Shown here: one piece after another, positions 25,342 to 43,223 of the stretch | How the letters are laid out: each line of letters begins with the position of its first letter | How positions within the stretch are numbered: position 1 is the stretch's first letter | DNA from: Aurantiacibacter atlanticus | GTDB taxonomy: Bacteria > Pseudomonadota > Alphaproteobacteria > Sphingomonadales > Sphingomonadaceae | Length of the DNA: 64,000 nt | Reading direction: 5' to 3' | NCBI RefSeq assembly: GCF_001077815.2 | Contig: NZ_CP011310.1 | Location: 868,001-932,000 of the forward strand | Notes under the pieces: generated by a model | The model's database searches: none | What the model was told of the DNA's origin: nothing | Seen by the model: the letters and a program-made list of their open reading frames with translations, nothing else | Program-made: the position numbers and the translations under genes

Positions 25342-26238
25342 TCATCCGCGTTGGCGTGCGAGGGGATAGCTGCCGAACATCGTGACACCCTTGCAGTGAA
25401 AGGCTAATTCTTCCAGTGCGCGGTCTACTGCGGGATCGCCCGGCGCGCCGATGATATCGGCATAGAACATGGTGGCGGAAAAGCTCGCGCCCCGCTGATA
25501 GCTTTCAAGCTTGGTCATATTGACCCCATTGGTGGCAAAACCGCCTATCGCCTTGTAAAGCGCAGCGGGAATGTTCTTCACCTCGAAAACGAACGTCGTC
25601 ATAGCCTCGCACCCGTCGAGCAGATCAGGGGCCAGCGGTTCAGGGGCCAGCACGACAAACCGGGTGGTGTTGTCAGCGCTGTCCTCCACATTTTCATCCA
25701 CAATGCTCAATCCGTAAAGATCGGCCGCCAGCGCCGGGGCAATAGCGGCAATGCCGGTGTCGCCAAGATCAGCGACATGCGCCGCTGCGCCGGCGGTATC
25801 GGCATGGCTGAGCGGCACCATATTGCGGTCACGCAGATATTGACGGCTCTGCGTCAGGGCGTGCGGATGACTGTAAGCAGCCGTGAACGGACCTGCGCCG
25901 GGCAGGGCCATCAGTGCATGATGAATGGCAAGAAAATGTTCTCCCACGATGCACAGCCCGCTTTCAGGCAGCAGAAAATGAATATCCGCTACGCGCCCGG
26001 CCTGCGAATTTTCAATCGGTATCATCGCGCAGCCCGCCTTTCCCGATTTGACCGCCTCGATCGCGTCGGAAAAGCTGAAGCACGGTAGTGGCAAAGCGGC
26101 GGGATCCCATTCCAGCACCGCACGGTGCGAATTTGCGCCCGGTGCGCCTTGAAAAGCGATTGCGTGCGCAGGATCTTCTGCTGCGGCAAGCCGCATTTTT
26201 TCGACCATGGCGAGGGCTGGGGGAGCGAAGCTGTCCAT
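25342..26238 (-). CDS. pheA: Prephenate dehydratase
   Basis: A monofunctional prephenate dehydratase (297 residues) that converts prephenate to phenylpyruvate in phenylalanine synthesis. The catalytic domain begins AIAFQGAPGANSHRAV, and the conserved TRF motif is in DNTTRFVVL. The C-terminal ACT domain (TTFVFEVKNIPAALYKAIGGFATNGVNMTKLESYQRG) should bind phenylalanine for feedback control; the classical ESRP is ESYQ, as I recall for alphaproteobacterial forms. ATG 26238 begins MDSFAPPALAMVEKM; the longer frame to 26439 would overlap the divergent cytochrome gene. Confidence 0.95.
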   Translation of the reverse strand: MDSFAPPALAMVEKMRLAAAEDPAHAIAFQGAPGANSHRAVLEWDPAALPLPCFSFSDAIEAVKSGKAGCAMIPIENSQAGRVADIHFLLPESGLCIVGEHFLAIHHALMALPGAGPFTAAYSHPHALTQSRQYLRDRNMVPLSHADTAGAAAHVADLGDTGIAAIAPALAADLYGLSIVDENVEDSADNTTRFVVLAPEPLAPDLLDGCEAMTTFVFEVKNIPAALYKAIGGFATNGVNMTKLESYQRGASFSATMFYADIIGAPGDPAVDRALEELAFHCKGVTMFGSYPLARQRG

Positions 26239-26359
26239 TGGATCGAAGCGCCTAGCTTGGCTATTGCAGGTCGACAAGCAGCTAAAGCCCTCTTGCGCGC
26301 TGCGCCAGTGGCCACTAGAGCGCCACCCACACCTAATCTCGCTGAAGAACGCCAGAGCT

Positions 26360-27043
26360 ATGAACGATCGCACGAACACCATTTTCGGCTGGGTCCTTGC
26401 CAGTTTGATTGTCGCCCTTGGCGGCTCCATTGTTGCCAATACCTATTTCCATGGCGGCGGCGTGGAGATGCCTGAAAATCCCGGTTATGTGATCGAGGCT
26501 GCCGAAGGCGGCGCGGGCGCGGATGCCGGCCCTTCGCTGGCCACGCTGCTTTCCACAGGTTCCGCCGATGCGGGCGAGGCAGTGTTTGCCAAGTGCAGCG
26601 CGTGCCACACGATTGCACAGGGCGGTGCGTCAGGGATCGGGCCAAATCTTTATGGCGTGCTCGGCTCGCCTATTGGCGGCCATGCGGCAGGCTTTGCATA
26701 TTCCAGCGCATTGTCTGGCAAAGGCGGCAATTGGGATTATGACAATATGGACGCGTGGCTCACCAGCCCGCGCGTATTTGCCAATGGCACCAAGATGAGC
26801 TTCGCCGGCCTTTCCAGCGGGGAAGACCGGGCCAATGTCATTCTCTACATGCTGGCCAATGGTGGCGGACCGGCACTACCGGAACCCGAACTCGAGATGG
26901 AAGAGACCGAGGGTGAAGATGGCGTCGATGCCCCAGGCGAAGGCCCGGGTGAAGTCGAAGGCGAATCAGCGGACGCAATTGAGGCGGCTGGCGGCATGGG
27001 CGATGATCAGCCGGTCGCCGAAAATGTCGGTGACGATGTCTGA
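26360..27043 (+). CDS. cycM: Membrane-anchored cytochrome c (CycM/c552-like)
   Basis: A 227-residue c-type cytochrome that should carry electrons from the bc1 complex to a terminal oxidase at the periplasmic face. The N-terminus (MNDRTNTIFGWVLASLIVALGGSIVANTYFHGG) is an uncleaved signal anchor. The class I haem domain has CSACHT for covalent haem attachment and GTKMSFAGL for the distal Met ligand. Unusually, the last 50 or so residues are a very acidic Glu/Asp/Gly tail (EMEETEGEDGVDAPGEGPGEVEGE...). ATG 26360 was chosen as the start of the anchor helix. It is divergent from pheA. Confidence 0.92.
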   Translation: MNDRTNTIFGWVLASLIVALGGSIVANTYFHGGGVEMPENPGYVIEAAEGGAGADAGPSLATLLSTGSADAGEAVFAKCSACHTIAQGGASGIGPNLYGVLGSPIGGHAAGFAYSSALSGKGGNWDYDNMDAWLTSPRVFANGTKMSFAGLSSGEDRANVILYMLANGGGPALPEPELEMEETEGEDGVDAPGEGPGEVEGESADAIEAAGGMGDDQPVAENVGDDV

Positions 27044-27461
27044 CCGCGTTCAGAGATAGAATTTGAAAAACCCTGGTCAGTGCTGGGGGGGTATAGTGAC
27101 AGCTGCCAGTAGGCGACGGCGTGACAAGCTCCGCTAATTCCGCACTTTGCCTGCAGAATTCTCCATATCTACCGACAATAAGCTCTCGACAGATTCGTTA
27201 TAAATTTGGACCGTCCGCAATTGCTGTGGATGGCGGAATGTCCCGTTGGCAAAGAAGCAGAGAGTGCGCCATAAACTAAGTGGTTTTGCCAAAGCTCATT
27301 CCTGGAACGACGCGAATGTTGCTGAAGTTTTTCGCTTCCTGAAGTGCAACTTCTTCGCACAAGAGCCAGATATGGAATGAGAATCACACCGAACTGCCCC
27401 CCGTTTCAAGTCTAATCATCAGTTCAAAGTCACAGTGCCCAACTACCGCGCAATCTGACAC

Positions 27462-27581
27462 TTAGGGTCCCTTCGGTTGATTATCCTGCGCCGTTTGGCG
27501 GTCGCGTCCGCGCTCCGGCGGCAACAGCGGCCCGACCAGCTCCCACTCATTATCCGATACCCCGTGCCGCTCGCCCAACAC
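27462..27581 (-). pseudogene. N-terminal fragment of an IS5-type transposase
   Basis: Read on the minus strand from 27581, the frame gives VLGERHGVSDNEWELVGPLLPPERGRDRQTAQDNQPKGP and then a stop at 27462-27464. The core pattern (S D x E W x L v x P L L P P E R G R ... x A q D N) is the conserved N-terminus of IS5-family DDE transposases. The rest of the enzyme is absent, so this is a decayed remnant. Confidence 0.75.
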
Positions 27582-27739
27582 TGCATCCAAAAGACAGTGT
27601 CGAATCGCAGGACGAGTCTCAGGTCAAGCTTCGTCCACGAAGTCGAGGTCGCGGACGGAAGTGAAAGCTCTAGCAAATATTCTTGGTAAGTGACGGCGTA
27701 GCTTACGGGCTAAGTGTGTTTTAGTTGCCATGACGAGGC

Positions 27740-27901
27740 TTGCATCATGCCATTCGGGCGGGAATTCGCGTTCTAATCATCCCGCCGCGCCCACTGACTA
27801 ATTCAAGGCTGCCTTTCGGAGACAGGTTTGATCCGGGCCGCTCAAACCGCAACGTGAGCATCGAATATAACCGGATACACTATAAGCAGCGCAACCAGAT
27901 C
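27740..27901 (+). pseudogene. C-terminal fragment of an IS5-type transposase
   Basis: The plus-strand frame reads HHAIRAGIRVLIIPPR, then an unrelated stretch, then RSNRNVSIEYNRIHYKQRNQI. Intact IS5-type transposases carry GI...IPPRSNRK followed by Y.K.RHKIE just before FGRLKDWRRI; here the frame ends after QRNQI, so the final catalytic Glu region is lost. It points away from the N-terminal fragment, so it is either a second element or the product of an inversion. Confidence 0.6.
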
Positions 27902-27932
27902 AGTGCCGGGGCTTTTTGGTTTCAGGGGCCTG

Positions 27933-28601
27933 TCAGTCCGGCCTGCCTTTGAAATCCTGCGCTACGACATACCATTCGCTCGATCCTTTGCGGCTGGCGG
28001 GGGGCTTGGCGTGTTTGACCGTGCGAAAATGCTTTTTGAGCAAATCCAGCAAGTCCTTGTCTGTGCCACCGGCAAACCCCTTGGCTAGGAACGCACCGCC
28101 TTTGGTCAGGTTTTCCACTGCGAACCATGCGGCGGCTTCCACCAGCGCCATCGTGCGCAAATGGTCGGTCTGTTTGTGGCCAACTGTATTGGCCGCCATA
28201 TCGGACAGAACCAGGTCGGCAGGGCCGCCCAGCGCCTCTTCAAGTGCGGCAGGGGCACCATCGTCCATAAAATCCATTTGCAGGATCGTCACGCCGTCAA
28301 TTGGCTCTGTTTCCAGAAAATCAATCCCGACCACGGTTGCCGCTGGTGCGCGTTTGCGCACCACCTGTGCCCAGCCGCCCGGCGCAATGCCAAGGTCGAC
28401 CACGCGTTTGGAGCCCTTCACGAGGCCGAATCGGTCATCCAGTTCAATCAGCTTAAACGCGGCACGGCTTCGCCAGCCTTCGTCCTTGGCCTTCTTGACG
28501 TATGGATCGTTCAACTGACGTTCCAGCCAGCGTTGCGAGCTTGCCTTGCGTTTCTTGCCGCTGGTGAGGCGGCGCGTCGAATCCTGTCCCGATCGGCTCA
28601 T
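27933..28601 (-). CDS. rlmE: 23S rRNA (uridine-2'-O)-methyltransferase RlmE (FtsJ/RrmJ)
   Basis: SAM-dependent 2'-O-methylation of U2552 in the 23S rRNA A-loop, a late step of 50S assembly. The 222-residue protein has the SAM motif [15 protein letters not shown] and the K-D-K-E catalytic set: Lys in [17 protein letters not shown], Asp in [18 protein letters not shown], Lys in [11 protein letters not shown] and Glu in SSEWYVVA. The basic N-terminus ([19 protein letters not shown]) is typical of alphaproteobacterial members. The ATG at 28599-28601 overlaps the ppx stop (ATGA), so the two are co-translated. Confidence 0.96.
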
Positions 28602-29794
28602 TTGCCCTGCCCCTGGCTGTGTTTGAGATTGCGCAGCGCTGCCTGCGCTTCTGCCCCTTCGGCATCCGCTGTCATCAGGTTGCGCAAGATACCTTCGCGT
28701 ATCCCGCGATCGGCTACGCCCAGGCGGGGGGCGGACCAGATTTCCAGTATCGCTTCCAGAATTGCACAACCTGCCACCACTAGTTCGGCGCGCTCATGCC
28801 CGATGCAATCGAGCTCGCTGCGCTGCTCTGGCGACATTTCGGAAAGCCGCTGCGAGATATCGAGCATGGCGTCAGTCGGCACCATCAACCCGTCAACTTG
28901 CTTGCGATCATATTGCGGCAGGCCAAGGTGAACGCTGGCCAATGTCGTTACCGTTCCGCTGGTGCCAAGCAGGCGCTGATCTGCCGATGCATGGCGCGAA
29001 ATGCGCTGAGCAAATTCCGCAAAACTGTCCAGCACGAGCTGTTTCATCGTGTCATACCGGGCAAGGCGTTCTTCCCTGCCGCCCGTTTCGTGCCCGACGG
29101 TTTCGGTTAGCGAAACCACGCCCCATGGCACGCTTTGCCAATCAAGAATGCGCGGCACCGGGGCGCCCGGTTCGATAAGCACAAGTTCGGTAGATCCGCC
29201 GCCAATATCGAAGATTACCGCCGGGCCCACGCCGTCTTCCAGCAAGATATGGCATCCCAGCACAGCCAATCGCGCTTCTTCCTGCGCGCTGATGATATCG
29301 AGCACGATACCGGTTTCGTCCTGCACCCTCTGGATGAATTTTTCTCCATTGCTGGCGCGCCGGCAAGCCTCTGTCGCGACTGATCGGGCGAGATGGACAT
29401 TGCGCTTTTTCAGTTTGTCAGCGCAGATTTTCAGGGCGCCCAGCGCGCGGTCCATCGCGACATCGGAGAGTTTCCCCGTCTGCGCCAACCCTTCACCCAG
29501 CCGGACAACGCGACTGAACGCGTCGATCACGACGAAGTTTTCATCAGCCGGACGGGCGATCAGCAGGCGGCAATTATTGGTGCCAAGATCAATGGCGGCA
29601 TAGGCCTGTTTGAAGGAATGGTGGGGCGGCCTTCTCCAGCTGCCTACGGGCTGCGGAGAGCTCTTCCTGCCTTCGCCGGGAGCGCGATTTCGAGCCTGTT
29701 TCGGCTTGGCCTGACGGTTGTTCGATCCGCCTTTGGCGCCCTGCGCCCGTGTCCTGGCCTTATCGCGTCCATCCGGCGGAATATGATCCGCCAT
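28598..29794 (-). CDS. ppx: Ppx/GppA exopolyphosphatase family protein
   Basis: A 398-residue member of the Ppx/GppA family of the ASKHA fold, acting on polyphosphate and/or pppGpp. A basic, disordered N-terminal 50 residues precede [24 protein letters not shown], the first phosphate-binding loop. [18 protein letters not shown] is the second loop, and [23 protein letters not shown] follows. Family members control phosphate storage and stringent-response nucleotides; which substrate dominates cannot be told from sequence. ATG 29794 is chosen over the in-frame TTG 29812. It is upstream of and overlaps rlmE, an arrangement I recall from other sphingomonads. Confidence 0.93.
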
Positions 29795-29943
29795 GGTAGT
29801 ACTTTCTTGCAATTATCACCCGCCACAAATGAGCGGAACCTGACATCAGGCTAGACGAAGCGTCGACAGCGCACAAGGACATGGGCTTGGGCAAGGTCGC
29901 AATGCGGGTCGCCAGCATTACGGCGGAAGGCTAGGGGAGGGGG

Positions 29944-30528
29944 ATGGTTCACCCGCCGCCCACGATTTCGCTATTCGCCAAGTTCCCGACACCGGGCGCA
30001 GCCAAGACCCGACTGGCCCCTGCGCTGGGGGATGAGGGTGCGGCACAGATCCATCGCTTGCTTGTCGAACGCACCATTGCGGTTTTGCAGGCGAGCGGGC
30101 TGCCCTTTGTGGTGCGCACGACCGGAGCCGAGCAGGGTGAATTTGCGAACTGGCTGGGAGCAGATTTTCTACTGGAAGACCAGGGTACGGATGATCTGGG
30201 TGCAAGGCTGGCGCGGGTAGTGCCGCCCGCCATTGTGCTGGGAGCTGATATTCCCGATCTTGAGGTGCAGCATCTGCACGATGCTGCGCATGCGTTGGAG
30301 GATGTGCCGGTGGTTATCGGTCCGGCGCGCGATGGCGGCTATTATCTGCTTGGTTTTCGAGAGGATATGCCGTTCCTGTGGGGCAATATGGCGTGGGGGA
30401 CTGAAACGGTCCTTAAGCGGACTGAGGCGCGCTTAGAGCAGCGCAACATCGCTTATCGCCTCCTAGAAACGCTCGACGATTGTGACCGCCCGGAAGATCT
30501 CTCCAATTGGCCCGATCTGGTACCGTGA
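29944..30528 (+). CDS. TIGR04282-type arsenosugar-associated glycosyltransferase-like protein
   Basis: A 194-residue protein with a CofC/MobA-like nucleotidyltransferase fold. ISLFAKFPTPGAAKTRLAPALGDEGA is the hallmark N-terminus; AIVLGADIPDLEVQHLHDA and VVIGPARDGGYYLLGFRED supply the rest of the active site. NCBI models name this family as a glycosyltransferase of arsenosugar biosynthesis because it co-occurs with ArsM/ArsS and TIGR04283. Its actual reaction is, to my knowledge, not well established. ATG 29944. The next gene starts inside its stop codon (GTGA), so the pair is coupled. Confidence 0.88.
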   Translation: MVHPPPTISLFAKFPTPGAAKTRLAPALGDEGAAQIHRLLVERTIAVLQASGLPFVVRTTGAEQGEFANWLGADFLLEDQGTDDLGARLARVVPPAIVLGADIPDLEVQHLHDAAHALEDVPVVIGPARDGGYYLLGFREDMPFLWGNMAWGTETVLKRTEARLEQRNIAYRLLETLDDCDRPEDLSNWPDLVP

Positions 30529-31250
30529 CCGGCCTTTCCATCATCATCCCCATGCTGAACGAAGAGCGAGCCTTGCCAGCACTGATTCACCACGTCAGCG
30601 CGCTGGAGCCTGCTCCGCTCGAAATCGTGGCGATGGATGGTGGCAGCGATGATGCCTCTGTCAATCTTGCAAAAGCTGCGGGGTGGCGCGTGGTATCCAC
30701 CAAGGCTGGACGCGGGCGGCAAATCAATGCCGGCGTCGAGGCGGCCAGAGGCGATTTGGTGGTGGTGCTTCATGCAGATACGGTGCCGCCACAAGACATG
30801 GTTGCGGTTGTGCGCCAGACATTGGCCGATGCGAAAATCGCGCTCGCCGGATTTACCCCGATAATCCGCGGCCCTGACAAGACCCGCTGGGGCACGACCC
30901 TGCATAATTGGGCCAAGACCTGGTATGCCCCGCTCCTGTTCCGACCGCATCTGTTCTTCAAGGGTGCACGCCTGCTGTTTGGCGATCACGCAATGTTCTT
31001 TCGCCGCAGTCAATTCATCGCCAGTGGCGGCTGCGATCCTGAAGCAATGGTGATGGAGGAGGCGGATCTGTGCATCCGCCTTACCCGTTTTGGCCGGGTC
31101 AGGATGATTCGGCGAACGGTGGAAACGTCAGATCGCCGGATTGCCGAATGGGGCGCGATCAAAGCCAATTGGATTTATCTGAAGGTCGGCTTCATGTGGG
31201 GGATCGGGGCGCGCCAGCGGCTCCATCGCCACTATCCCGACATTCGCTGA
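30525..31250 (+). CDS. TIGR04283-type arsenosugar-associated family 2 glycosyltransferase
   Basis: A 241-residue GT2-fold glycosyltransferase. LSIIIPMLNEERALPALI is the nucleotide-sugar-binding start, IVAMDGGSDDAS the second strand, RGRQINAGVEAARGDLVVVLHADTVPP holds the H-A-D-T metal site, and FGDHAMFFRRSQFIASGGCDPEAMVMEEADLCIRL the acceptor region. This matches TIGR04283, the second glycosyltransferase of arsenosugar loci. GTG 30525 overlaps the previous stop and begins exactly at the conserved start. Its 3' end overlaps the convergent SDR gene by 19 bp, so the two sides of the locus are packed tail to tail. Confidence 0.9.
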   Translation: MTGLSIIIPMLNEERALPALIHHVSALEPAPLEIVAMDGGSDDASVNLAKAAGWRVVSTKAGRGRQINAGVEAARGDLVVVLHADTVPPQDMVAVVRQTLADAKIALAGFTPIIRGPDKTRWGTTLHNWAKTWYAPLLFRPHLFFKGARLLFGDHAMFFRRSQFIASGGCDPEAMVMEEADLCIRLTRFGRVRMIRRTVETSDRRIAEWGAIKANWIYLKVGFMWGIGARQRLHRHYPDIR

Positions 31251-32254
31251 AGTTTCTCCGCAGGCAAATAGCCGCGCTGAAGCCCATAGGCGATTAGCCG
31301 ATCGAGCCATGCGTTGTCGGTATCAGGGCATAAAAGGCCGGTCAGGTCGCGAAAGCGTGCATCCGAAAATTGCGGATTGCGGGTGAAATACGCCCCGAAT
31401 GTGCCGATCATGCGTTCTGCCAGCAGCCTTTCGGCAGGCCGCAGCCCAGCAGGATCGTAATCGCCGGGCTCGACCACCAGAGGATCGGGAAAATGTGCCA
31501 CCCGTGCCACCCCATGCGCTAGCTGCGCCGCCTGTGTGGGCGCAGCAGCGACGAGGTGAAAATAGCCGCCCTCTGCTTCGTCCATCTGTTCTGCCAATGC
31601 GGCGATGCCACCTGCCACATGATCTATCGGCACCAGATCAAGCGTCGCGCCCGCGGCAGCCGGAAATTGCGTGACCTTGCCACGCGCCATCAAGCGGAAA
31701 ACATTACAGAGCGAAGGGAAATCGCGGATTGTCCCGCCTGCGCTGTCTCCCAGTACGATGGACGGGCGCGCCACGGCAAAGGGCACTCCACTTGTTGCAA
31801 CCACCGCTTCTGCCGCAGCCTTGCTCGCTTCATATCTATTGGTGAACTGCGTGCCTTCAGGCACTGCTGCTTCTGCGATCATACCATCACGCGTGCCGCA
31901 GGTGTAGGCGGTGCTGACATATAGGAAACGCGCACCCGCAGCCTGCGCATATTCTATCGCATTGCGCGTGCCCCCTATATTGACGGCCCGTAATTCATTT
32001 TCCGGCGCATCGAATTCGAGGCTGGCCGCGCAATGCACCACCACGTCAAAGGGTGCAGTTGTCACGCCCATCATAGGCAGTGTCACATCGCCCGAAACAA
32101 TGGATATACGATCAAGCTGCGCGCCGTCATTGCCGCGCACTTCGCGTATGCGCCGGACCATTGCAGTGACCTTATGGCCCCTTGCCACCAGTCTTGCGCA
32201 AACTTCGCCGCCGATCAGTCCGGCAGCCCCTGTCACCAGGATGTTCAGCAACAC
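31232..32254 (-). CDS. Extended SDR / NAD(P)-dependent epimerase or acyl-reductase-like protein
   Basis: A 340-residue extended short-chain dehydrogenase. NILVTGAAGLIGGEVCARLV is the dinucleotide-binding loop. VVHCAASLEFDAPENELRAVNIGGTRNAIEYA resembles the NAD_binding_4 (fatty acyl reductase-like) group, and RYEASKAAAEAVV holds the catalytic YxxxK. The later VARPSIVLGD is also typical. It begins with GTG at 32252-32254, overlapping the end of arsM by 10 bp, so it is translated together with the arsenite methyltransferase. Possible roles are sugar-nucleotide modification or reduction of an acyl group for an arsenolipid; both are inference from position. Confidence 0.78.
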   Translation of the reverse strand: MLLNILVTGAAGLIGGEVCARLVARGHKVTAMVRRIREVRGNDGAQLDRISIVSGDVTLPMMGVTTAPFDVVVHCAASLEFDAPENELRAVNIGGTRNAIEYAQAAGARFLYVSTAYTCGTRDGMIAEAAVPEGTQFTNRYEASKAAAEAVVATSGVPFAVARPSIVLGDSAGGTIRDFPSLCNVFRLMARGKVTQFPAAAGATLDLVPIDHVAGGIAALAEQMDEAEGGYFHLVAAAPTQAAQLAHGVARVAHFPDPLVVEPGDYDPAGLRPAERLLAERMIGTFGAYFTRNPQFSDARFRDLTGLLCPDTDNAWLDRLIAYGLQRGYLPAEKLQRMSG

Positions 32255-33303
32255 GGTGACCCATCGGGCGTTGCAATTGTGCGGTCAACATTTGTCTCTC
32301 CGAAGGGCGCGTCCGTCCCGCAGCCGGGGAAAACGCCGTAATGGCGGGAAAAATCACCGATGAACCCGAAATGTTCGGCAAAGCGGGTTTCCGCCAGCAT
32401 CAGCCAGCTATTGCCGCATATCGGGAAGGTACGGCCCGTTTCCATCGCGTGATGCGCATCAAGGTGAAAGACCTGCGGATGTTCTGGCACCGTGCCTTTA
32501 TACCGCACCGCCTGTCCGTAATCCTCGCATTGCGGCTCCAGCTCATCAAGCTTGAACAGGCGGTAGGTTGCAGAGACGAAGGCAATGCTTGACAGCTTTT
32601 CTGCGATTGTCTTATCATTGATGGCGAGCGGCCTATCCGTGACAAGACGCGGATCAGCAAAGCCTGCAGCCTTGGCCAGCGTATCGAAATCACCCCAATA
32701 CAGCGCGCCTGAAAGACATTCGCCATGCAGCACCGGATCATCCAGGAGATGAGCCGGGACGCGCCTGTCTGCATATACATCGGAGAAATACAGCTCTCCG
32801 CCGGGCTTAAGCAATTTATGCGCGGCGCGGAACACTGCTGCCTTGTCTGCCACCAGATTGATGACGCAATTGGATACGATGACATCGAAGCTGCCGGGCT
32901 CCAGGCCCAGCTCATCGAGCTTTTCGATATCGCCTTCGACAAAGTCCACATTGGCAAAGCCAAAACGTTCCGCATGCCAGCCCCGATATTCACGCGCCAC
33001 GGCCAGCTGTTCAGGCGTTGCGTCCACGCCTGTCACGCTGCCGTTTGCGCCTGCCAATTGCGCAAGCAGATAGGCATCCTGTCCGCTGCCTGATCCAAGA
33101 TCGAGCACGCGGCATCCTGTCAGCGCCTGGGGCACGACCAGCCCGCAGCCATAATAGCGCGCCTTCACTTCATCATGCACATTGGACAAGGCGGCCAGCA
33201 CAGCGGGCTGCGGCATTTCGAGTGTGGAGCAGGCATCGGTACGCAAATCGCCCGATCCGACCAGCACCTTGCCGTAATAGTCCTGCGAATTCTGAAGATT
33301 CAT
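32245..33303 (-). CDS. arsM: Arsenite S-adenosylmethionine methyltransferase ArsM
   Basis: Methylates trivalent arsenic using SAM, giving mono-, di- and trimethyl arsenicals. The 353-residue protein has the SAM loop VLDLGSGSGQDAYLLAQL. The arsenic-binding cysteines are C53 (RYYGCGLV), C146 (SNCVINL) and C196 (GECLSGALYW), plus C25 (DACSTLEM). The spacings C25-C53 (28) and C146-C196 (50) equal those I recall for algal CmArsM C44-C72 and C174-C224. The C-terminal half (CEDYGQAVRYKGT, FPICGNSW, YGVFPGCG) is also typical of ArsM. ATG 33303 is chosen over GTG 33366. It is divergent from the flavoprotein gene. No arsR is adjacent. Confidence 0.93.
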   Translation of the reverse strand: MNLQNSQDYYGKVLVGSGDLRTDACSTLEMPQPAVLAALSNVHDEVKARYYGCGLVVPQALTGCRVLDLGSGSGQDAYLLAQLAGANGSVTGVDATPEQLAVAREYRGWHAERFGFANVDFVEGDIEKLDELGLEPGSFDVIVSNCVINLVADKAAVFRAAHKLLKPGGELYFSDVYADRRVPAHLLDDPVLHGECLSGALYWGDFDTLAKAAGFADPRLVTDRPLAINDKTIAEKLSSIAFVSATYRLFKLDELEPQCEDYGQAVRYKGTVPEHPQVFHLDAHHAMETGRTFPICGNSWLMLAETRFAEHFGFIGDFSRHYGVFPGCGTDAPFGETNVDRTIATPDGSPCC

Positions 33304-33407
33304 GAAACCGATTATCCCGTGACAGCGAATGACTGGGCCATAGACACGAAACATTTCGTATCCCACCCTGTATCGGTTACGCCGAGATTTCTATCTTCCG
33401 GAGTTCC

Positions 33408-34826
33408 ATGAAATATTCGCATGATCTGATTGTAATCGGCGGCGGTGCCGCTGGCCTTGTGGCGGCGGGCGGCTGCGCGATGTTCGGCCTCAAGACCGCG
33501 CTGATCGAAGGCGAAAAGATGGGCGGTGAATGTCTTATTAACGGCTGCGTGCCGTCCAAGGCGCTGATCGCCAGCGCACGCCGTGCTGCCGAAGCGCGCA
33601 AGGAAAAGCGTGCCGGAGTGCAGCTTGCGCCGCCGGTTGTCGATTGGGGTGGCGTGCATGCCCATATTCATCGCGCCATTGCGCAAATCGCCCCCCATGA
33701 CAGCGAGGAACGCTTTGAGGATATGGGCTGCGAGGTATTGCGCGATTGGGCCAGAGTTATCGGGCCCAACGCTGTAGAAGTCGCCGGCCGCACGCTGACC
33801 GCGCCGCGCATTGTGATTGCCACAGGCAGCGCGCCGGCCATCCCGTCAATCCCCGGACTTGCCGACGTGCCTTTCCTCACCAATGAAAATCTGTTCGACC
33901 TTACCGAGCAGCCAAGGCATCTCGTCATCATCGGGGGCGGTGTAATCGGGATGGAGATGGCACAAAGTTTCTGCCGCCTCGGCAGCGTGGTGACTGTGAT
34001 CGAACCGGGCAAATTGATGAGCCGTGATGACCGCGCCAGCGTTGCGCTGGTGGCGGAGACCATGGAGCGTGAAGGCGTGCGCTTTGTGAAAGCGCGGGCG
34101 GAAAAAGTTACAGCGGAGCCAGAGGGTCAGATATCCGTCACCACCGACGGCGGTGAAACCATCACCGGATCGCATCTGCTTGTTGCAGCGGGCCGGAAGG
34201 CGCGGGTTTCCGGCTTTGGTCTGGAAGAGATCGGGATGGAAATGGGCGAAAACGGGATCAAGGTCGATGACCGTCGCCGTACTTCGATCAAACATATCTA
34301 CGCCATCGGTGATTGCCGCGAAGGTCCAAGGCTGACGCATATATCGGGCTATGAAGGTTCCAACGCAGTGCTGGAAATCGCGCTTGGCCTGCCAGCCAAG
34401 GCGGATTTCCGCGCCTTGCCGTGGTGCACCTATACCCAGCCAGAAGTGGCGCAAATCGGCCTTACCGAGGGGGAGGCGCGTGACAGATTTGGTGACCGGC
34501 TAAAGATCGTGACCGAAGGGTTTGATCATAATGACCGCGCAATTGCTGAAGGGCGAGAGCGCGGCCATCTGAAGGTGATGCTGAATGGCAAAAAGGTGGT
34601 CGGTGCCAGCATTTGTGGAGACAATGCAGGCGAATTGCTGCTGCCCTTCACGCAGATGATTACCGGCAAATCGGGCACGTTCGACATGGGCGGGGCGATT
34701 CTCGCCTATCCCACGCGATCTGAAATCACCAAGGCGGCGGTCTTTGCCGCATGGGAGCCGACCGTTTTTGGCAAATGGCCCAGACGCTGGGCTTCCTTTG
34801 TCCAGAAATTGCGGCGGGTTTTCTGA
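33408..34826 (+). CDS. Mercuric-reductase-like FAD/NAD(P) disulfide oxidoreductase
   Basis: A 472-residue flavoprotein of the pyridine nucleotide-disulfide reductase family. LIVIGGGAAGLVAAGG binds FAD, GGECLINGCVPSKALI carries the redox-active pair C42/C47, LVIIGGGVIGMEMAQSFCRLG binds NAD(P)H, and IYAIGDCREGPRLTH is the second FAD site. The dimer-interface motif that is usually HPTxxE reads AYPTRSE (Tyr about 434, Glu 439), a Tyr also present in MerA. It has no N-terminal metal-binding domain. Encoded beside ArsM, it may reduce arsenic intermediates or a thiol carrier; this is inference. Its stop overlaps the ATG of the radical SAM gene. Confidence 0.88.
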   Translation: MKYSHDLIVIGGGAAGLVAAGGCAMFGLKTALIEGEKMGGECLINGCVPSKALIASARRAAEARKEKRAGVQLAPPVVDWGGVHAHIHRAIAQIAPHDSEERFEDMGCEVLRDWARVIGPNAVEVAGRTLTAPRIVIATGSAPAIPSIPGLADVPFLTNENLFDLTEQPRHLVIIGGGVIGMEMAQSFCRLGSVVTVIEPGKLMSRDDRASVALVAETMEREGVRFVKARAEKVTAEPEGQISVTTDGGETITGSHLLVAAGRKARVSGFGLEEIGMEMGENGIKVDDRRRTSIKHIYAIGDCREGPRLTHISGYEGSNAVLEIALGLPAKADFRALPWCTYTQPEVAQIGLTEGEARDRFGDRLKIVTEGFDHNDRAIAEGRERGHLKVMLNGKKVVGASICGDNAGELLLPFTQMITGKSGTFDMGGAILAYPTRSEITKAAVFAAWEPTVFGKWPRRWASFVQKLRRVF

Positions 34827-35815
34827 TGGCCAGCCATTCGCTTTCACGCAATGTGCCATCGGGCGCTTCGCCCTTTGCAGTGCAATCGAAAAAGCTCTCG
34901 CAAGAAAAATTCGCCAATCCGCGCTTCACCGCCGATGGCAGCACGCGTGCTCAGGTGGCACTGCGCAAGCTTGAGACATTGTGGTTTGCAACCGGAACAC
35001 TGTGCAATCTGGCCTGCATCAATTGTTACATTGAAAGCAGCCCGACCAATGATGCGCTGGTCTATCTGGCAGCGGAGGAGGTGGCGCGCTTCCTCGACGA
35101 AATAGGCGGAACTGGCGTGCGCGAAATCGGCTTTACCGGCGGCGAACCGTTCATGAACCCGGCGATCATCGCAATGCTGGAAGATGCCCTTTCACGCGGC
35201 CACGAAGTGCTGGTGCTGACCAATGCGATGAAGCCGATGCGGCGGCATGAAGCAGCGCTGCTGCGGCTGCGCGATGCCTATGGTGACAAGCTCACCCTGC
35301 GCATATCGATCGACCATCACACACGCCAAGTGCATGAGGCAGAGCGGGGTCCGGGTAGCTGGCCGCCGATGCTGGATGGCCTGCGCTGGTTATCGACCAA
35401 TGGCTTTTCCATCGCCGCCGCGGGGCGCAGCATGGCGGGGGAGACGGAGGGAGCGGAGCGAACCGCCTATGCCACGCTGTTTTCTGCCAGTGGCATCCAC
35501 ATCGATGCGGCAGACCCTTTGCAGATGGTGCTGTTCCCTGAAATGGATGGATGCGCCGATGTGCCGGAAATTACTGAGGCGTGCTGGGATATACTCGACA
35601 CTTCGCCAGACAGGCAGATGTGCGCCAGCAGCCGCATGGTCGTCCACCGCAAGGGGGAGCCTGCGCCGCGCGTCGTCGCCTGCACGCTTTTGCCATATGA
35701 CCCTGCCTTCGATCTGGGAGGCAATCTGGCCGACGCGACGCAAACCGTCGCGCTCAACCACCCGCATTGTGCACGATTTTGCGTGCTGGGCGGGGCGAGT
35801 TGTTCGGCAGGCTGA
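34826..35815 (+). CDS. Radical SAM protein of arsenosugar-type locus
   Basis: A 329-residue radical SAM enzyme. The cluster motif is CNLACINC (C60, C64, C67) in LWFATGTLCNLACINCYIESSP. IGFTGGEPFMNPAIIAML is the GGE SAM-binding strand, and TLRISIDHHTRQVHEAERG lines the barrel. Further cysteines (CADVPEITEAC, MCASSRM, and C315/C319/C326 in the last 15 residues) could ligate an auxiliary cluster. It does not show the C-terminal DUF3641 half of ArsS that I remember. It is translationally coupled (TGATG) to the flavoprotein, so it probably works in the same pathway, perhaps adding a 5'-deoxyadenosyl group to a methylated arsenical. Confidence 0.82.
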   Translation: MASHSLSRNVPSGASPFAVQSKKLSQEKFANPRFTADGSTRAQVALRKLETLWFATGTLCNLACINCYIESSPTNDALVYLAAEEVARFLDEIGGTGVREIGFTGGEPFMNPAIIAMLEDALSRGHEVLVLTNAMKPMRRHEAALLRLRDAYGDKLTLRISIDHHTRQVHEAERGPGSWPPMLDGLRWLSTNGFSIAAAGRSMAGETEGAERTAYATLFSASGIHIDAADPLQMVLFPEMDGCADVPEITEACWDILDTSPDRQMCASSRMVVHRKGEPAPRVVACTLLPYDPAFDLGGNLADATQTVALNHPHCARFCVLGGASCSAG

Positions 35816-35851
35816 CCAACATACCTGCATCCTTTTGGGCGGTTGGCGCGT

Positions 35852-36295
35852 ATGTCATGCATGATCATACGCCGCGTCACCTTCGCCCCGATAGCTATGG
35901 CTGCTGCCAGCCTGTTTCTTTTGTCCGCCTCTGCCCCGGCCCAGCGATCTATTGACGGGACCTATATCGACCAGGGCGGCTATGTCGAAATTACCGTGGC
36001 ACCCTGCGGGAATGCCCGCTGCGGCGATACTACGCGAATCGTGCGCACCAAGCCGGGCGAAAGCAATCGTGACCGGCATAATGATGATCCATCTCTTCGC
36101 AACCGCCCTATTGTAGGAGTGGAGATATTGCAGGACCTGCGCTGGGATGATGGCGCGTGGCGCGGAAGAGTGTATAATCCAGAAGATGGCGGCACTTACC
36201 GCGCAGAAGTGCGCCCCGCCGCCAATGGCGCGCTGGAAGTGAAAGGCTGCGTCACGCTGTTCTGCCGGACTGTCACATGGTCTGCCGCCCGATAA
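35852..36295 (+). CDS. DUF2147 domain secreted protein
   Basis: A 147-residue exported protein: a signal peptide (VTFAPIAMAAASLFLLSASAPAQ) then the DUF2147 domain, with DGTYIDQGGYVEITVAPCGNARCGDTTRIV near the start and NPEDGGTYRAEVRP followed by EVKGCVTLFCRTVTWSA near the end. Two Cys pairs could form disulfides in the periplasm. Family function is unknown; members often respond to envelope conditions. Possible ATG starts are 35852 and 35861. It is 36 bp after the radical SAM gene on the same strand, but the domain is common elsewhere, so membership of the arsenic pathway is doubtful. Confidence 0.82.
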   Translation: MSCMIIRRVTFAPIAMAAASLFLLSASAPAQRSIDGTYIDQGGYVEITVAPCGNARCGDTTRIVRTKPGESNRDRHNDDPSLRNRPIVGVEILQDLRWDDGAWRGRVYNPEDGGTYRAEVRPAANGALEVKGCVTLFCRTVTWSAAR

Positions 36296-36314
36296 GAATG
36301 CGCGACACAACGGC

Positions 36315-36341
36315 TTGACCCAATCGTGCCTGCAGGATAAA
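36315..36341 (+). promoter_or_regulatory. Probable housekeeping promoter of tRNA-Gln
   Basis: TTGACC at 36315-36320 fits a -35 element, and GATAAA at 36336-36341 is a fair -10 after 15 bases. It ends about 15 bp before the tRNA. Assigned by position and pattern only. Confidence 0.45.
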
Positions 36342-36355
36342 GGCCCGCCCCGCGT

Positions 36356-36429
36356 TGCCCTGTCGTCTAATGGTAAGACTACGGACTCTGACTCCGTCAA
36401 TTGAGGTTCGAATCCTCACGGGGCATCCA
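36356..36429 (+). tRNA. tRNA-Gln (anticodon CTG)
   Basis: A 74-nt cloverleaf. The acceptor TGCCCTG pairs with CGGGGCA (one G-T). The D stem is GTC/GAC with loop TAATGGTAA. The anticodon stem ACGGA/TCCGT closes loop CTCTGAC, giving anticodon CTG for CAG (Gln). The T arm is TGAGG-TTCGAAT-CCTCA. The discriminator is T and CCA is encoded. The sequence is isolated between a DUF2147 gene and a convergent sulfotransferase gene; there is no adjacent integrase. Confidence 0.96.
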
Positions 36430-36468
36430 GCTTTTCTCCATGACATAGAGTGCCATCTGCTGCAGCAA

Positions 36469-38526
36469 TCACCAGGCTGTGTTGCTGACGGAAGACGGGT
36501 CAGAGGAATCGTGCGCCCAATAGCCAAACTGCCTGATCCACGGTTCCAGCACGGGAAGGACCGGTGCCAGATGGTGCGCATAGCGTTTCCAACGCCCGCT
36601 TGCCCGCCGGTAAATGGGCTCCGTTACTTGCGAATAGCTGGCCGTTGCGATCAGGCCGCGTGAACGGGCGGTGGCGCTGTGGTCGAGCAGAGTGTCGCTC
36701 CAGTCGATGCCCAGCCAATTGATCAATGGCCGCAATTCCTTCTCCGCATCCTCAACCAGACATTCATATGTGAAAGTGTGGATGTCAGCCGGGAAAAGCG
36801 CGCGCGATTGCCGCCAGTGGCGAAAACACAGATCGTAGAATGCGGCGGCATCCTCCAATCGCAGAAAATTCGACATGGCCGAATTGAGCCGGAAATTGCT
36901 CATGAAACAGCTCAGCACCACATCGCAGGGATGTCGCAGCGCCAGAATGATTTTGGCATTGGGGAACAGGCGGCAGATTAGCGGCAACCGATATAGGAAC
37001 AGGGGTGATTTATCGATCAGCAATTGCCCTGTGGCAAGCGGCTGTATCTTGGCGACTTCTGCGAAATAATGGTCCCGCGCGCGTGCAATTTCTCTGGCAT
37101 CAAGATCAGGCAGAGCTTGCAGGCCGCCCAGTTCCTCTTCGACGGTGTTGAGCGGCGGTTGTTCCTCCATCACAGCCGTTTCAGCATGCCCCATCAGGAT
37201 CGTATCGAGCAAGGTGGTGCCAGACCTTGGAAAGCCCAGAAGGAACACCGGATCGGGCCGGTCATCGTCTATCGCGATCGCAGGGAGAGTGTTGCGCCAT
37301 CGGGGCGTGAGCATTGCCAGTTCCTCAGCCAGTTTTGCACGTAATTCAGAGGCGCGTTCCAGTGGCCGGGTCGGGCTATCCTGCATCATTTCATTGACAT
37401 GGACGAAAGCGGAGAACGCATCATCGGTGCGCCTCAGCCGATCGAGCAAGGTCGCCCGGATATGCGCAGTGCGAACAGGCTCCAGATCTTCAGGAATGTT
37501 ATCGAGCCTTGCCAGCGAGTGCTCAAACTTGCGCGCCCGTCGCAATTCAAGTGCCTCGATAAAGGCCAGCTTGTTGTCGGCTATGCCATTCTGGCGGGCG
37601 AGTTCTATCAGTGGCGTAAACTCATCCTCGCGATTGGTGTGTTCATACTGGATTGCGAGGCCAAGATAGGCATCAAAATCCGTAGGATCGAGGCGGATTG
37701 CCTGCCGATAGGCGGCCTCGGCTTCGTCGGTGCGGCGCAGCACGCCATATTCGATGCCGAGTTTCAACTGGATGTCAGCATCTTGCGGGTCACATTGCGA
37801 GGCCTGCAGCAATGCAGCAAGAGCATCTTCCTGCTTCATCTGCTTCTTGCGGAGAACATACAGCTCATAAGGCAGCCGGGGATCGCCGGGAAAATCGGCA
37901 ATTGCCCGGACAAGCTCATCCTCAGCCTCTTGCAGCAGGTCGAGCGATTGCAAGGCGGCAGCCAGGTTGAGCCTTGCCGGCGCTGCGCCCGGATCAATTT
38001 TGATCGCCCGGCGCAAGGCATCAACCGCGCCTGCATGGTCCCCAAACCCCGCACGCGCATTGCCCAGATTGTTCCAGCATTCAAAATCATCGGGGTGTTT
38101 CTGAATGACCCTTTCATAGGCGCCTGTCGCGGCCCCAAAATCTTCCAGCTTCTGCGCAAGAAATGCGCGATAGCGGGCAATACGCAGGCTGGTATCCGCA
38201 TTCATCAGATCGGCACTTGCCACCTTTAACGCGTCTTCATCGCGTTTCTGGTCCATCAGGAGAGCGATGAGATTGCAGGCGATTGTAATGTCTTGCAGGC
38301 GCAGGGCATGCGCCTTTGCCAGATGCTGCGTAGCTGCCGCCAGATCGCCGCTGCGCGCGCAGACCATGCCCATAAAACCGTGAAGTGCTGCTGTGTCTCC
38401 GGTTCCGCCATCTATCGCAGTCTCGGCAATGGTGCGTGCCTGCGCCATGTCACCGCGTCGCACCGCCGAAATGGCCTGATCGAGCGGGTCGGCCCCACTT
38501 GTCATTCCGCTGCTTTGTCCGGACAT
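36469..38526 (-). CDS. TPR-repeat sulfotransferase
   Basis: A 685-residue cytoplasmic protein. About residues 10-420 are tandem TPR repeats (for example YERVIQKHPDDFECWNNLGNARAGFGDHAGAVDALRRAIKIDPGAAPARLNLAAAL). From about 440 a sulfotransferase domain follows: FLLGFPRSGTTLLDTIL is the 5'-phosphosulfate loop and ILALRHPCDVVLSCFMSNF the 3'-phosphate loop that binds PAPS. The acceptor is unknown. ATG 38526 follows GGGAGAG with good spacing; the longer frame to 38715 would overlap the receptor gene. It sits 73 bp after the TonB-dependent receptor, and such pairs recur in Sphingomonadales and Caulobacter. Confidence 0.88.
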   Translation of the reverse strand: MSGQSSGMTSGADPLDQAISAVRRGDMAQARTIAETAIDGGTGDTAALHGFMGMVCARSGDLAAATQHLAKAHALRLQDITIACNLIALLMDQKRDEDALKVASADLMNADTSLRIARYRAFLAQKLEDFGAATGAYERVIQKHPDDFECWNNLGNARAGFGDHAGAVDALRRAIKIDPGAAPARLNLAAALQSLDLLQEAEDELVRAIADFPGDPRLPYELYVLRKKQMKQEDALAALLQASQCDPQDADIQLKLGIEYGVLRRTDEAEAAYRQAIRLDPTDFDAYLGLAIQYEHTNREDEFTPLIELARQNGIADNKLAFIEALELRRARKFEHSLARLDNIPEDLEPVRTAHIRATLLDRLRRTDDAFSAFVHVNEMMQDSPTRPLERASELRAKLAEELAMLTPRWRNTLPAIAIDDDRPDPVFLLGFPRSGTTLLDTILMGHAETAVMEEQPPLNTVEEELGGLQALPDLDAREIARARDHYFAEVAKIQPLATGQLLIDKSPLFLYRLPLICRLFPNAKIILALRHPCDVVLSCFMSNFRLNSAMSNFLRLEDAAAFYDLCFRHWRQSRALFPADIHTFTYECLVEDAEKELRPLINWLGIDWSDTLLDHSATARSRGLIATASYSQVTEPIYRRASGRWKRYAHHLAPVLPVLEPWIRQFGYWAHDSSDPSSVSNTAW

Positions 38527-38599
38527 ATTCTCTCCCGGTCTGCATGGCGAGGGAGGGCCACCTTCAGGAAGCCCTCCATCAACATTGGCCAATGCGACC

Positions 38600-41500
38600 T
38601 TAGAAGTCGAGCGTGACGCCTGCGAAGATATAACGCCCAAGGGCATCATAGGTCGCAGGGTAGGTGTTACCGTTGCATGGGCCGGTCGGGCACAGATTCG
38701 GCGTGGCGCCGCCACCCGATGTTACCAGCGGCGGTTCCTTGTCGAACAGATTATTGATGCCGAGGCGGAAGATGTAGGAATCGCGGAAGCTGTATGACAG
38801 CGACGCATCGATATAGTTGAAAGACCCAATGCGCACGCCCGGCCCGGCATGGTCGGTGAGCCCATTGGGGTTCAGCGCGTCGAAGGACGAAATCGTTTCC
38901 GCCTTGACCTTACCGACATATCGCCATTGGGCCGAAACGCCGATGCCATTGTCCATATTGAGTGTCACGCGGGCCCTGTGGCGCCACTGCGGGAGCGGCG
39001 CACCAGCATCCGATGTGCCGCCAACGCTGCATGTCGGACCATACAGACCTGCACAATCATATGAGACGGGGCTGCCATCGGCATTCGTCAGGCCGTTCTC
39101 GACTTCGTAGGAATCGAGGTAGGTGCCATTCATCGCGAAGGACAGATTGCCAACATTCAGCGGATAACTGTAATTGGCAGCCACTTCGATCCCCGATGTC
39201 TGAAGGCGCCCGACATTGTTGGGGAGGTCTTCGGTAAAGCCATTGGGCGTAAGCCAGAGCGAACCGGCAGCATCGCGATTGACCAGAGCACAGGAATCCG
39301 GCGTGAAGCTGGCTGAGGCGTTGGTAACGCAATTATTCAGAATGGCATCCACACCGAAGCTGCGGATCGCATCGGTAACTTCGATGTTGAAATAGTCGAT
39401 CGTCACCGCCAGTCGCGGAACGAAACTGGGCTGAAGGACAACGCCGGCAGTCCATGTCTTGGCGGTTTCGGGCTGCAGATCGGGATTGCCGCCCAGCAGG
39501 CCATTATATTGCCCCGCCGGATTTGGCGTCACACCCTGACCAATGACAAGGCCCTGCGCGAGACAGCCATAATCCGTGGCCGAGACAGTTATGCCTGCGC
39601 AGGGATCGTTCGATCCGCTGAGACCAACCGCAGAAGTCCGGAACAATTCCTGGATATTGGGCGCCCGAACAGCCTGATTATACATTGCGCGAAGCCGTAT
39701 ATCGCTGATCGGGGCCAGTTCCGCACCGATCTTGAACGTATCGGTGTTATACGTGCGGCTCGCGCTCGTTTCATAATGCGAGCGGCGGTAACCAGCGCTG
39801 ATTTCAAACGAATCGACGAACCCGTCTTGCACGATGGGTATCTGAGTCTCTGCAAAGAACTCCCAGACGTCGAAGCTGCCCGAAAGTGGCAAGGTCGCGC
39901 CGCCCTGTCCCGTCAGATCTCCCGTTGCAAAGGCGTTGTCGACTTCGAGTTCCAGCGTTTCCTTACGCCATTCCCCGCCAATGTTGACCCGGACGCCATC
40001 AGCTGCCCACGGCGTGGCCATGCCGTAATCAGTGAGATCGCCGGTAAAGGAGATGTTGGCCACTTGCTCGGTCGTTTCGCCCGATTGGAAACCTGACACA
40101 GTAAGATAATCGACCGCCGCCTGGCTTGCCCCGCCTTCACCTGCGAAGAGATCGTAGGGCACGCAATTGGTGTTGCCTGCAGTTATCAGCGACCGGCACA
40201 CGATCTGACCTTGTGTGGCGCTGCCCGGGCGATTGTCTATTACTGCATCAAGCGCATTCACCAGGCGGGCGATTGAAAACTCGTTCGAATAGACCTGCGA
40301 ATAATCCACCTTCCCATATTGGTAATAGGCATCATAGCTCCACACGTCGGAGAGACCGCCCTGTGTTCCAATGACGCCGCGGAAGGTCGTATGGCCCAGA
40401 TTGGCGCGGCGTGGACCGCCTTCCAGATTGCGCCGGAGCGTCAGTGCATAACCTTGGTTATATGTCCCTCCCTGACCGTCTGCAAAATCTATCGGCGGGG
40501 CAGTCGGATCCGGGTTGAAGGGCGCGGTGGTGGCAGCGGGGAAGGTCCCGACAAAGCCGCTGATCAGATTGTCGTCATCGCAAATCACCGCAAGCTGGGC
40601 TGCAGACATGAGCGGGTTGTCGCAATTCATCGTGAGAGTGTTGCCGAAATTGCCCGATGGGGCGATCTGCGCCACCGTCTTATTGTCCATGAATTGGAAT
40701 TCCATATAGGGCCGAAACATCTCATCGACCTCGTAATTGACGAAGGCACCGGCAGTGAAACGCTCGTCAGGGCGCTGGTAATGATTGAATGGTGCAAAGT
40801 TGAACACGCCCAGACCATTCACGAAACCGCCATTGGGCGCGAAGGTGTAAAAGGTAGACGTCCCCGCTGTAACATCGGTATCGAACACCAGCACATTGCC
40901 GTTCGGCGTGGTTGCCGAACCACCGCAATTATTGCCGCCGCCGCCCACGTTCTGGATGACGCACGCGCTATAATCCCGCTCTATCTGGGTGACGGGTTCG
41001 ATCTTGCGATAGCCGCCGTAGATCATGAAATGGCCGCGATCATCGGCAAAGCCCGAACCAAAGGCTACCGTTGCATCAAAGGTGTCGCCATCCGTCGTGC
41101 TGCCGTCGGGGAAGGGGAAGCCGCGCGCATCCAGAAGCGGCCGGATGAAGTTGTTATTATTGTCATGCTGGTAGATCCCATATTGCGCATCGATCCTGAA
41201 TCCTTCGAATTCATCGTCGATGATGAAGTTGACAACGCCAGCAACGGCATCCGCGCCATAAACTGACGAAGCACCGCCAGTCAGCACCTCGACACGCTTC
41301 AGCATGGCGGCAGGTATGATATTGATATCTGCTGCAGAGCCACTGGCCGGTGAAGGATCGCCGGGCACGATGCGCCGTCCATTGACCAGCGCGAGCGTGC
41401 GATTGGAGCCAAGGCCACGCAGATCCACTGTCGCGGTGCCATCCGCACCATTGGCGAGCGATGAAGCCTGGCTTGCCGCAACCGAGGGCAGGGAATTCAG

Positions 41501-41749
41501 GATATCCTCGACGCGGGTCACGCCCTGTAACTTGATATCTTCACTGCCAACCACGGTAACTGGCGATGGCGATTCAACGCCTTCCCGCGCGAGACGCGAA
41601 CCGGTGACCACGATCGTGGATTGCGTTTCTGCCGGTTCGACCTGCGTTTCCACCGTGACGTTATCCTGCGCGAATGCGCAGGGGGCCAATGCAAGCGACG
41701 CAGCAAGTGCTGTCGATGCGTGGAGTTTTCGGATGTTTTTCGCTTTCAT
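38600..41749 (-). CDS. TonB-dependent outer-membrane receptor
   Basis: A 1049-residue outer-membrane transporter. A signal peptide (MKAKNIRKLHASTALAASLALAPCAFAQ) is followed by a TonB box-like segment (STIVVTGSRLAREG), the plug domain (PSPVTVVGSEDIKLQGVTRVEDILNSLPSV ... VDLRGLGSNRTLALVNGRRIVPGD ... VEVLTGGASSVYGADAVAGVVNFI), and a long beta-barrel. The C-terminal residue is Phe (IFAGVTLDF), the signal for barrel assembly. No FecR-like or sigma gene is adjacent. The substrate is unknown; this subgroup often takes up oligosaccharides, peptides or siderophores. ATG 41749 has GAGGAA upstream. Confidence 0.95.
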   Translation of the reverse strand: MKAKNIRKLHASTALAASLALAPCAFAQDNVTVETQVEPAETQSTIVVTGSRLAREGVESPSPVTVVGSEDIKLQGVTRVEDILNSLPSVAASQASSLANGADGTATVDLRGLGSNRTLALVNGRRIVPGDPSPASGSAADINIIPAAMLKRVEVLTGGASSVYGADAVAGVVNFIIDDEFEGFRIDAQYGIYQHDNNNNFIRPLLDARGFPFPDGSTTDGDTFDATVAFGSGFADDRGHFMIYGGYRKIEPVTQIERDYSACVIQNVGGGGNNCGGSATTPNGNVLVFDTDVTAGTSTFYTFAPNGGFVNGLGVFNFAPFNHYQRPDERFTAGAFVNYEVDEMFRPYMEFQFMDNKTVAQIAPSGNFGNTLTMNCDNPLMSAAQLAVICDDDNLISGFVGTFPAATTAPFNPDPTAPPIDFADGQGGTYNQGYALTLRRNLEGGPRRANLGHTTFRGVIGTQGGLSDVWSYDAYYQYGKVDYSQVYSNEFSIARLVNALDAVIDNRPGSATQGQIVCRSLITAGNTNCVPYDLFAGEGGASQAAVDYLTVSGFQSGETTEQVANISFTGDLTDYGMATPWAADGVRVNIGGEWRKETLELEVDNAFATGDLTGQGGATLPLSGSFDVWEFFAETQIPIVQDGFVDSFEISAGYRRSHYETSASRTYNTDTFKIGAELAPISDIRLRAMYNQAVRAPNIQELFRTSAVGLSGSNDPCAGITVSATDYGCLAQGLVIGQGVTPNPAGQYNGLLGGNPDLQPETAKTWTAGVVLQPSFVPRLAVTIDYFNIEVTDAIRSFGVDAILNNCVTNASASFTPDSCALVNRDAAGSLWLTPNGFTEDLPNNVGRLQTSGIEVAANYSYPLNVGNLSFAMNGTYLDSYEVENGLTNADGSPVSYDCAGLYGPTCSVGGTSDAGAPLPQWRHRARVTLNMDNGIGVSAQWRYVGKVKAETISSFDALNPNGLTDHAGPGVRIGSFNYIDASLSYSFRDSYIFRLGINNLFDKEPPLVTSGGGATPNLCPTGPCNGNTYPATYDALGRYIFAGVTLDF

Positions 41750-43220: not shown

Positions 43221-43223
43221 AAT

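Follow-up and report, generated by a model that had tools for sequence, protein, structure and literature searches.

A candidate arsenosugar-type gene block in Alphaproteobacteria with a radical SAM enzyme outside the ArsS family

Arsenosugars and arsenolipids rank among the major organic arsenic species in marine food webs, and to our knowledge the known bacterial arsenosugar route is tied to ArsS. In the first steps of arsenosugar synthesis SsArsS works with SsArsM (PMC8552651), and the arsenic is reported to be adenosylated by a radical S-adenosylmethionine (SAM) enzyme (PMC12159101). Here we describe a compact block of six genes at positions 29944-35815 of a 64,000-nucleotide stretch of Aurantiacibacter atlanticus DNA (hereafter the window), which probably builds arsenic-containing sugars with a key enzyme unlike that known in cyanobacteria. 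The reading that we favor, with moderate confidence, is that the block serves as an assembly line of the arsenosugar type, with arsenic and carbon coupled by a radical SAM family distinct from ArsS. Judged by title or the start of the abstract, none of the literature matches listed describes this cluster.

Composition of the block

A sequence-only reading of the window had claimed six closely packed genes here, and all six open reading frames (ORFs) are present as placed, their families borne out by ORF, profile and PDB matches with TIGR04283 just under its cut-off. The block opens on the plus strand with gtC (29944-30528), encoding a CofC-like transferase of the TIGR04282/DUF2064 type (172.9 bits against a cut-off of 134; PF09837), and gt2 (30525-31250; PF00535), encoding a TIGR04283-like GT2-family glycosyltransferase that scores 177.6 bits, about 4 bits under the cut-off of 182. 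These are followed on the minus strand by genes for a short-chain dehydrogenase/reductase (SDR) of the NAD_binding_4/thioester-reductase-like type (31232-32254; PF07993, E = 4.7e-33) and for ArsM, an As(III) SAM methyltransferase (32245-33303, in an ORF open to 33366). Back on the plus strand, fad (33408-34826) encodes a pyridine-nucleotide-disulfide flavoprotein (PF07992/PF02852) with a CxxxxC active site (CLINGC) and a Tyr at its YPTRSE motif, and the last gene (34826-35815, in an ORF open from 34751) encodes the radical SAM enzyme, here called rSAM, with a CxxxCxxC motif and a Cys-rich C-terminal part. The start of gt2, a GTG in an ORF open from 30507, overlaps the end of gtC by 4 bp, and the overlaps of 4, 10, 19 and 1 bp claimed earlier agree with starts at GTG 30525 (gt2) and ATG 34826 (rSAM). 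Since the six genes form three strand blocks (+ + / - - / + +), no single transcript spans them all.

The enzyme identity of ArsM is well supported, and its activity is predicted from its sequence. Its best PDB match is 5evj (E = 4.4e-99), and C25, C53, C146 and C196, which we take to be the arsenic-binding cysteines, are invariant in an alignment of 14 ArsM proteins, in keeping with the earlier claim of an ArsM with all conserved cysteines. The protein scores 161.4 bits against NF008823, under the cut-off of 263, and also falls under the cut-off of NF038099. In many relatives from other genera the alignment begins only near residue 20, so the start may be ATG 33303, not 33366, which would leave a gap of about 104 bp between the divergent arsM and flavoprotein genes.

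Conservation, co-occurrence and a kit shared with ArsS loci

Of 396 genomes of the order, 109 carry the rSAM gene (E <= 1e-10), and gene order was examined in 101 of these carriers, the window included. All six genes stand in the same order and on the same strands in 32 of the 101, which upholds the proposal of a single conserved unit; gtC and gt2 both lie within 6 kb of rSAM in 74, the SDR gene in 64 and a PF01048 phosphorylase gene in 29, whereas 21 loci (a few on short contigs) have none of gtC, gt2, flavoprotein, ArsM, SDR or phosphorylase nearby. Within the window's genus the block is present in 13 of the 14 members sampled; the remaining genome, G100, gave no rSAM, ArsM or TIGR04282 match and is a natural negative comparator. 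On a distant rSAM branch (36-39% identity), four loci (L083, L084, L086 and L087) carry gtC-gt2-arsM-rSAM in a single direction.

The partners also accompany one another when they are unlinked. In the 21 genomes whose rSAM stretch lacks the kit, TIGR04282 was found elsewhere in 20 (E <= 1e-15; 17 over the cut-off), the sole miss being G089, an assembly of about 370 contigs, and gt2 adjoins the unlinked gtC in all 20 positives. For example, G020 carries tvp38-fad-duf547-gt2-gtC-arsM on one strand. In addition, window-type ArsM (E <= 1e-40) occurs in 64 of the 396 genomes, 63 of which also have the rSAM gene, even though the two genes lie far apart in several of them (e.g., G065, G203, G020 and G006); the only ArsM-bearing genome lacking rSAM, G104, is 69% complete. 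An accidental neighborhood was thus rejected on the recurring order and strands and the unlinked co-occurrence. That the six genes are neighbors of no common function, with ArsM detoxifying arsenic beside general redox and sugar genes, would suit the three strand blocks and the lack of a single transcript, and is very improbable in view of the order kept in 32 of the 101 carriers and of partners that co-occur when unlinked.

We compared these loci with canonical ArsS loci. No protein over the TIGR04167 (ArsS) cut-off was found in the 396 genomes of the order, whereas in a sample of 388 genomes from the phylum 114 have one (116 at E <= 1e-60). An intact arsS elsewhere in the window's genome, which the sequence-only reading had named as a competing source of arsenosugars, was searched for by profile, and none exceeded the cut-off. 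Conversely, window-type rSAM was found in none of 72 of the 116 ArsS genomes at E <= 1e-25, in a search that had no positive control and in genomes that differ in taxonomy from the order's rSAM set. Twenty ArsS loci were read, and partners within about 10 kb comprised a flavoprotein in 10, TVP38 in eight, a gtC-type and a gt2-type transferase in seven each, ArsM in five and a phosphorylase in three. Weak ArsM-like matches in two of the loci (L188 and L191) gave no family at E <= 1e-15 and were left uncounted. Locus L193 reads mtap-arsS-tvp38-fad-gt2-gtC-arsM, and its ArsM is 62% identical to that of the window. The CxxxxC site and the Tyr at a YPT/YPN motif, where disulfide reductases usually carry a catalytic His, are present in all 21 aligned flavoproteins, including the nine of 10 ArsS-locus flavoproteins that were aligned, all with the motifs of the window protein. 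The coupling to a flavoprotein therefore fails as the distinguishing mark it had been taken for, since half of the ArsS loci read carry a related one. The SDR, found in none of the 20 ArsS loci, is a real local addition relative to them. The two kinds of locus thus have a common kit and differ in their radical SAM enzyme.

Several further neighbors were observed. The plus-strand gene for a DUF2147 protein (35843-36295; PF09917) lies downstream of the block, adjoins it in the window and in 12 other loci of the genus examined, and is a possible passenger. A search of positions 26000-44000 with Rfam at gathering thresholds returned nothing but one tRNA, a tRNA-Gln (CTG) at 36356-36429 just beyond the block, which is a possible insertion site. 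On a distant branch, the kit of L085 and L088-L092 adjoins TVP38 and ECF-type sigma factor genes, joined in L089, L091 and L092 by a PiT-type transporter assigned by reading of the sequence; these neighbors suggest possible phosphate or arsenate control. Finally, a metZ-like gene stands beside a lone rSAM gene in 12 of the 101 loci (L059, L060, L064, L067, L069, L071, L074-L077, L079 and L082), often with GTP cyclohydrolase I-like and TrkH-like genes, also assigned by reading.

The radical SAM enzyme and the case for an arsenic substrate

Gene identities, conservation, co-occurrence and the lack of ArsS in the genomes sampled from the order are established here. Two groups of observations nevertheless count against an arsenosugar-type role, the first from the enzyme itself and the second from the distribution of its partners.

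Against TIGR04167 the window rSAM reaches 52.6 bits (52.9 when the whole genome was searched), far from the cut-off of 300, no better than against the sactipeptide maturase StsB (55.3) and below the Rv1681 family (97.3). It has no match to DUF3641 (PF12345), nor does its distant relative L084, whereas the ArsS of L175 has this domain at 199 bits; the differing layout of the radical SAM protein had been recognized from the letters alone. An ordinary ArsS missed by annotation is ruled out on these grounds, and by its profile matches the rSAM family is not a member of the ArsS family. The family has nine invariant cysteines across 50 aligned sequences, and its profile aligns with ArsS at E = 2.4e-17 over 264 columns, C-terminal cysteines included, compared with 1.2e-12 over 182 columns for MoaA and 1.6e-11 over 136 columns for PqqE (a profile of 14 rows). 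The assertion of no recognizable ArsS was thus accurate in that nothing in the genome exceeds the cut-off or, in the window rSAM, matches DUF3641, and too strong in that the profile aligns with ArsS better than with MoaA or PqqE. Yet MoaA and PqqE score equally high against each other (4.6e-18). Moreover, SPASM/Twitch radical SAM enzymes generally end in cysteine clusters, so the argument from the C-terminal cysteines is weak and the case rests on the partners, not on motifs.

As for the partners, arsM is missing from 24 of the 101 loci in which the five remaining genes stand in the same order. Window-type ArsM is missing from 46 of the rSAM carriers; nine of these have a divergent ArsM-like match, and the other 37 of the 109 carriers gave no ArsM in either search, the second at E <= 1e-25, with three of the 37 (G078, G111 and G113) less than 85% complete. 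The divergent proteins are encoded by G015, G021, G023, G045, G048, G060, G084, G089 and G092, and seven of these nine give a match split in two within one frame of about 380-400 amino acids, which suggests an inserted segment. On a 90-row rSAM tree arsM switches between present and absent about 15 times, and well-supported branches force at least nine of these switches. The rSAM core is thus stable while ArsM is gained and lost, making ArsM an optional, accessory member of the unit. A broad model likewise gave no ArsM in 12 of the 72 canonical ArsS genomes, so that ArsM is dispensable in both sets and more often in rSAM genomes.

The wider panel adds to these points. In the species-level collection, tblastn (E <= 1e-3) turned up some rSAM relative in at least 577 stretches, and the best 80 of these, 57-73% identical and mostly alphaproteobacterial by title, form a named panel in which 19 loci are shorter than 12 kb. 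No kit lies within 6 kb in 44 of the 80, where unlinked partners were not searched, and ArsM is near rSAM in one of the 62 loci L113-L174, i.e., those outside L095-L112. One panel member, L115 (CAMDRJ010000009.1), is titled as a Klebsiella pneumoniae metagenome-assembled genome and encodes an rSAM 63% identical to that of the window; the contig is probably mis-binned DNA from another bacterium. Furthermore, the finding of TIGR04282 in none of 20 rSAM-negative genomes sets against each other taxon-unmatched groups, the negatives being the first 20 listed, from the window's family and genus, and many positives belonging to other families. Finally, the better PF01048 match of the window's genome is located at C1:2535561-2536268, some 1.6 Mb away from the block.

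Because of the carriers that lack ArsM and the five-gene loci that lack arsM, an arsenic substrate does not follow of necessity from the genome data. In ArsM-less carriers, methylated arsenic is imported, or rSAM accepts arsenite, or the product of the core is arsenic-free. The last option, that an rSAM-gtC-gt2 core makes an arsenic-free 5'-deoxyadenosyl-derived sugar or nucleoside to which arsM is an optional add-on, draws on the 37 ArsM-negative carriers, the 24 loci minus arsM and the single ArsM among the 62 panel loci. We consider it unlikely, as 63 of the 64 arsM-bearing genomes have rSAM even where the two are unlinked (G065, G203, G020 and G006), and a related kit accompanies ArsS, the arsenic chemistry of which is published (PMC8552651 and PMC12159101). 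A bolder reading, which we think less likely than not, is that a second radical SAM family, distinct from ArsS and spread through Alphaproteobacteria, makes the C-As bond of arsenosugar-like compounds, in about one third of its carriers without a genome-encoded ArsM, from arsenite or scavenged methylarsenicals, its products including unmethylated or differently substituted arsenic.

Proposed pathway and comparison with known systems

In the arsenosugar-type reading that we favor, a non-ArsS radical SAM family would occupy the position of ArsS in a pathway of Alphaproteobacteria, presumably by 5'-deoxyadenosyl transfer to arsenic. ArsM would first methylate As(III) to dimethylarsenic(III), and rSAM would then cleave SAM and place 5'-deoxyadenosyl on arsenic as ArsS does, a step suggested by the shared partners and the partial profile similarity to ArsS. 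An enzyme of the 5'-methylthioadenosine (MTA) phosphorylase type would next remove adenine to give 5-arsinoyl-5-deoxyribose 1-phosphate, after which the TIGR04282 and TIGR04283-like enzymes would activate the sugar and transfer it to an acceptor. Most speculatively, the flavoprotein may keep arsenicals or thiol partners reduced, and the SDR may tailor the sugar or the aglycone. We infer the substrate, the group transferred, the order of steps and the product; of the alternative organoarsenical pathway proposed earlier, the arsenosugar-type context is supported.

The phosphorylase beside rSAM was assigned to PF01048 by profile, and we take it to be of the MTA-phosphorylase type; the PF01048 protein of the window's genome is 40-62% identical to the rSAM-linked copies. 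Its proximity is two-edged with respect to the group transferred, suiting a 5'-substituted adenosine substrate and equally MTA recycling, and its presence in three of the 20 ArsS loci leans toward a nucleoside. Recycling would fit a different scheme, in which rSAM acts first on inorganic arsenite in the manner of ArsL, ArsM methylates later if present and the phosphorylase recycles released MTA. ArsL-type SAM cleavage releases MTA. This scheme accords with the dispensability of ArsM and with the proposal that the arsinothricin radical SAM enzyme ArsL acts on As(III), with ArsM after it (PMC8552651). It appears distinctly improbable, given that the same paper reports only the three CxxxCxxC cysteines as conserved in ArsL versus nine here, and that a nucleoside product better suits both the glycosyltransferases and the partial profile match to ArsS.

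If the rSAM family performs the ArsS step, arsenosugar-type synthesis reaches more widely into Alphaproteobacteria. Carriers of the full block, carriers of all of it except arsM, and G100, a genome of the window's genus that has neither, offer a clean comparison that makes the contribution of ArsM directly testable.

Among known systems, BlsE and SkfB, radical SAM enzymes with solved structures, are 19% identical to the window rSAM and belong to other pathways. The Rv1681 family (NF049973) provides the best NCBIfam model for the rSAM core (97.3 bits, residues 76-250), but the score is far below the 380-bit cut-off and the match ends before the C-terminal third. The arsinothricin cluster arsQML resembles the block in that its ArsM gene and a radical SAM gene are neighbors (PMC8552651), and differs in the cysteine count of ArsL reported there and in the transferases present in the window block. 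The canonical arsenosugar cluster (ArsM and ArsS with TIGR04282 and TIGR04283) is set apart from the block by the sub-threshold TIGR04167 score and missing DUF3641 of the window radical SAM enzyme, by the SDR added in close relatives, and by TVP38, which is common to ArsS loci and the block's relatives and has no counterpart in the window block. Nevertheless, the canonical cluster and the block have in common related transferases and flavoproteins that agree in their Cys and Tyr motifs; some canonical loci also carry a phosphorylase gene, and the ArsM proteins of L185 and L193 are 62-64% identical to that of the window.

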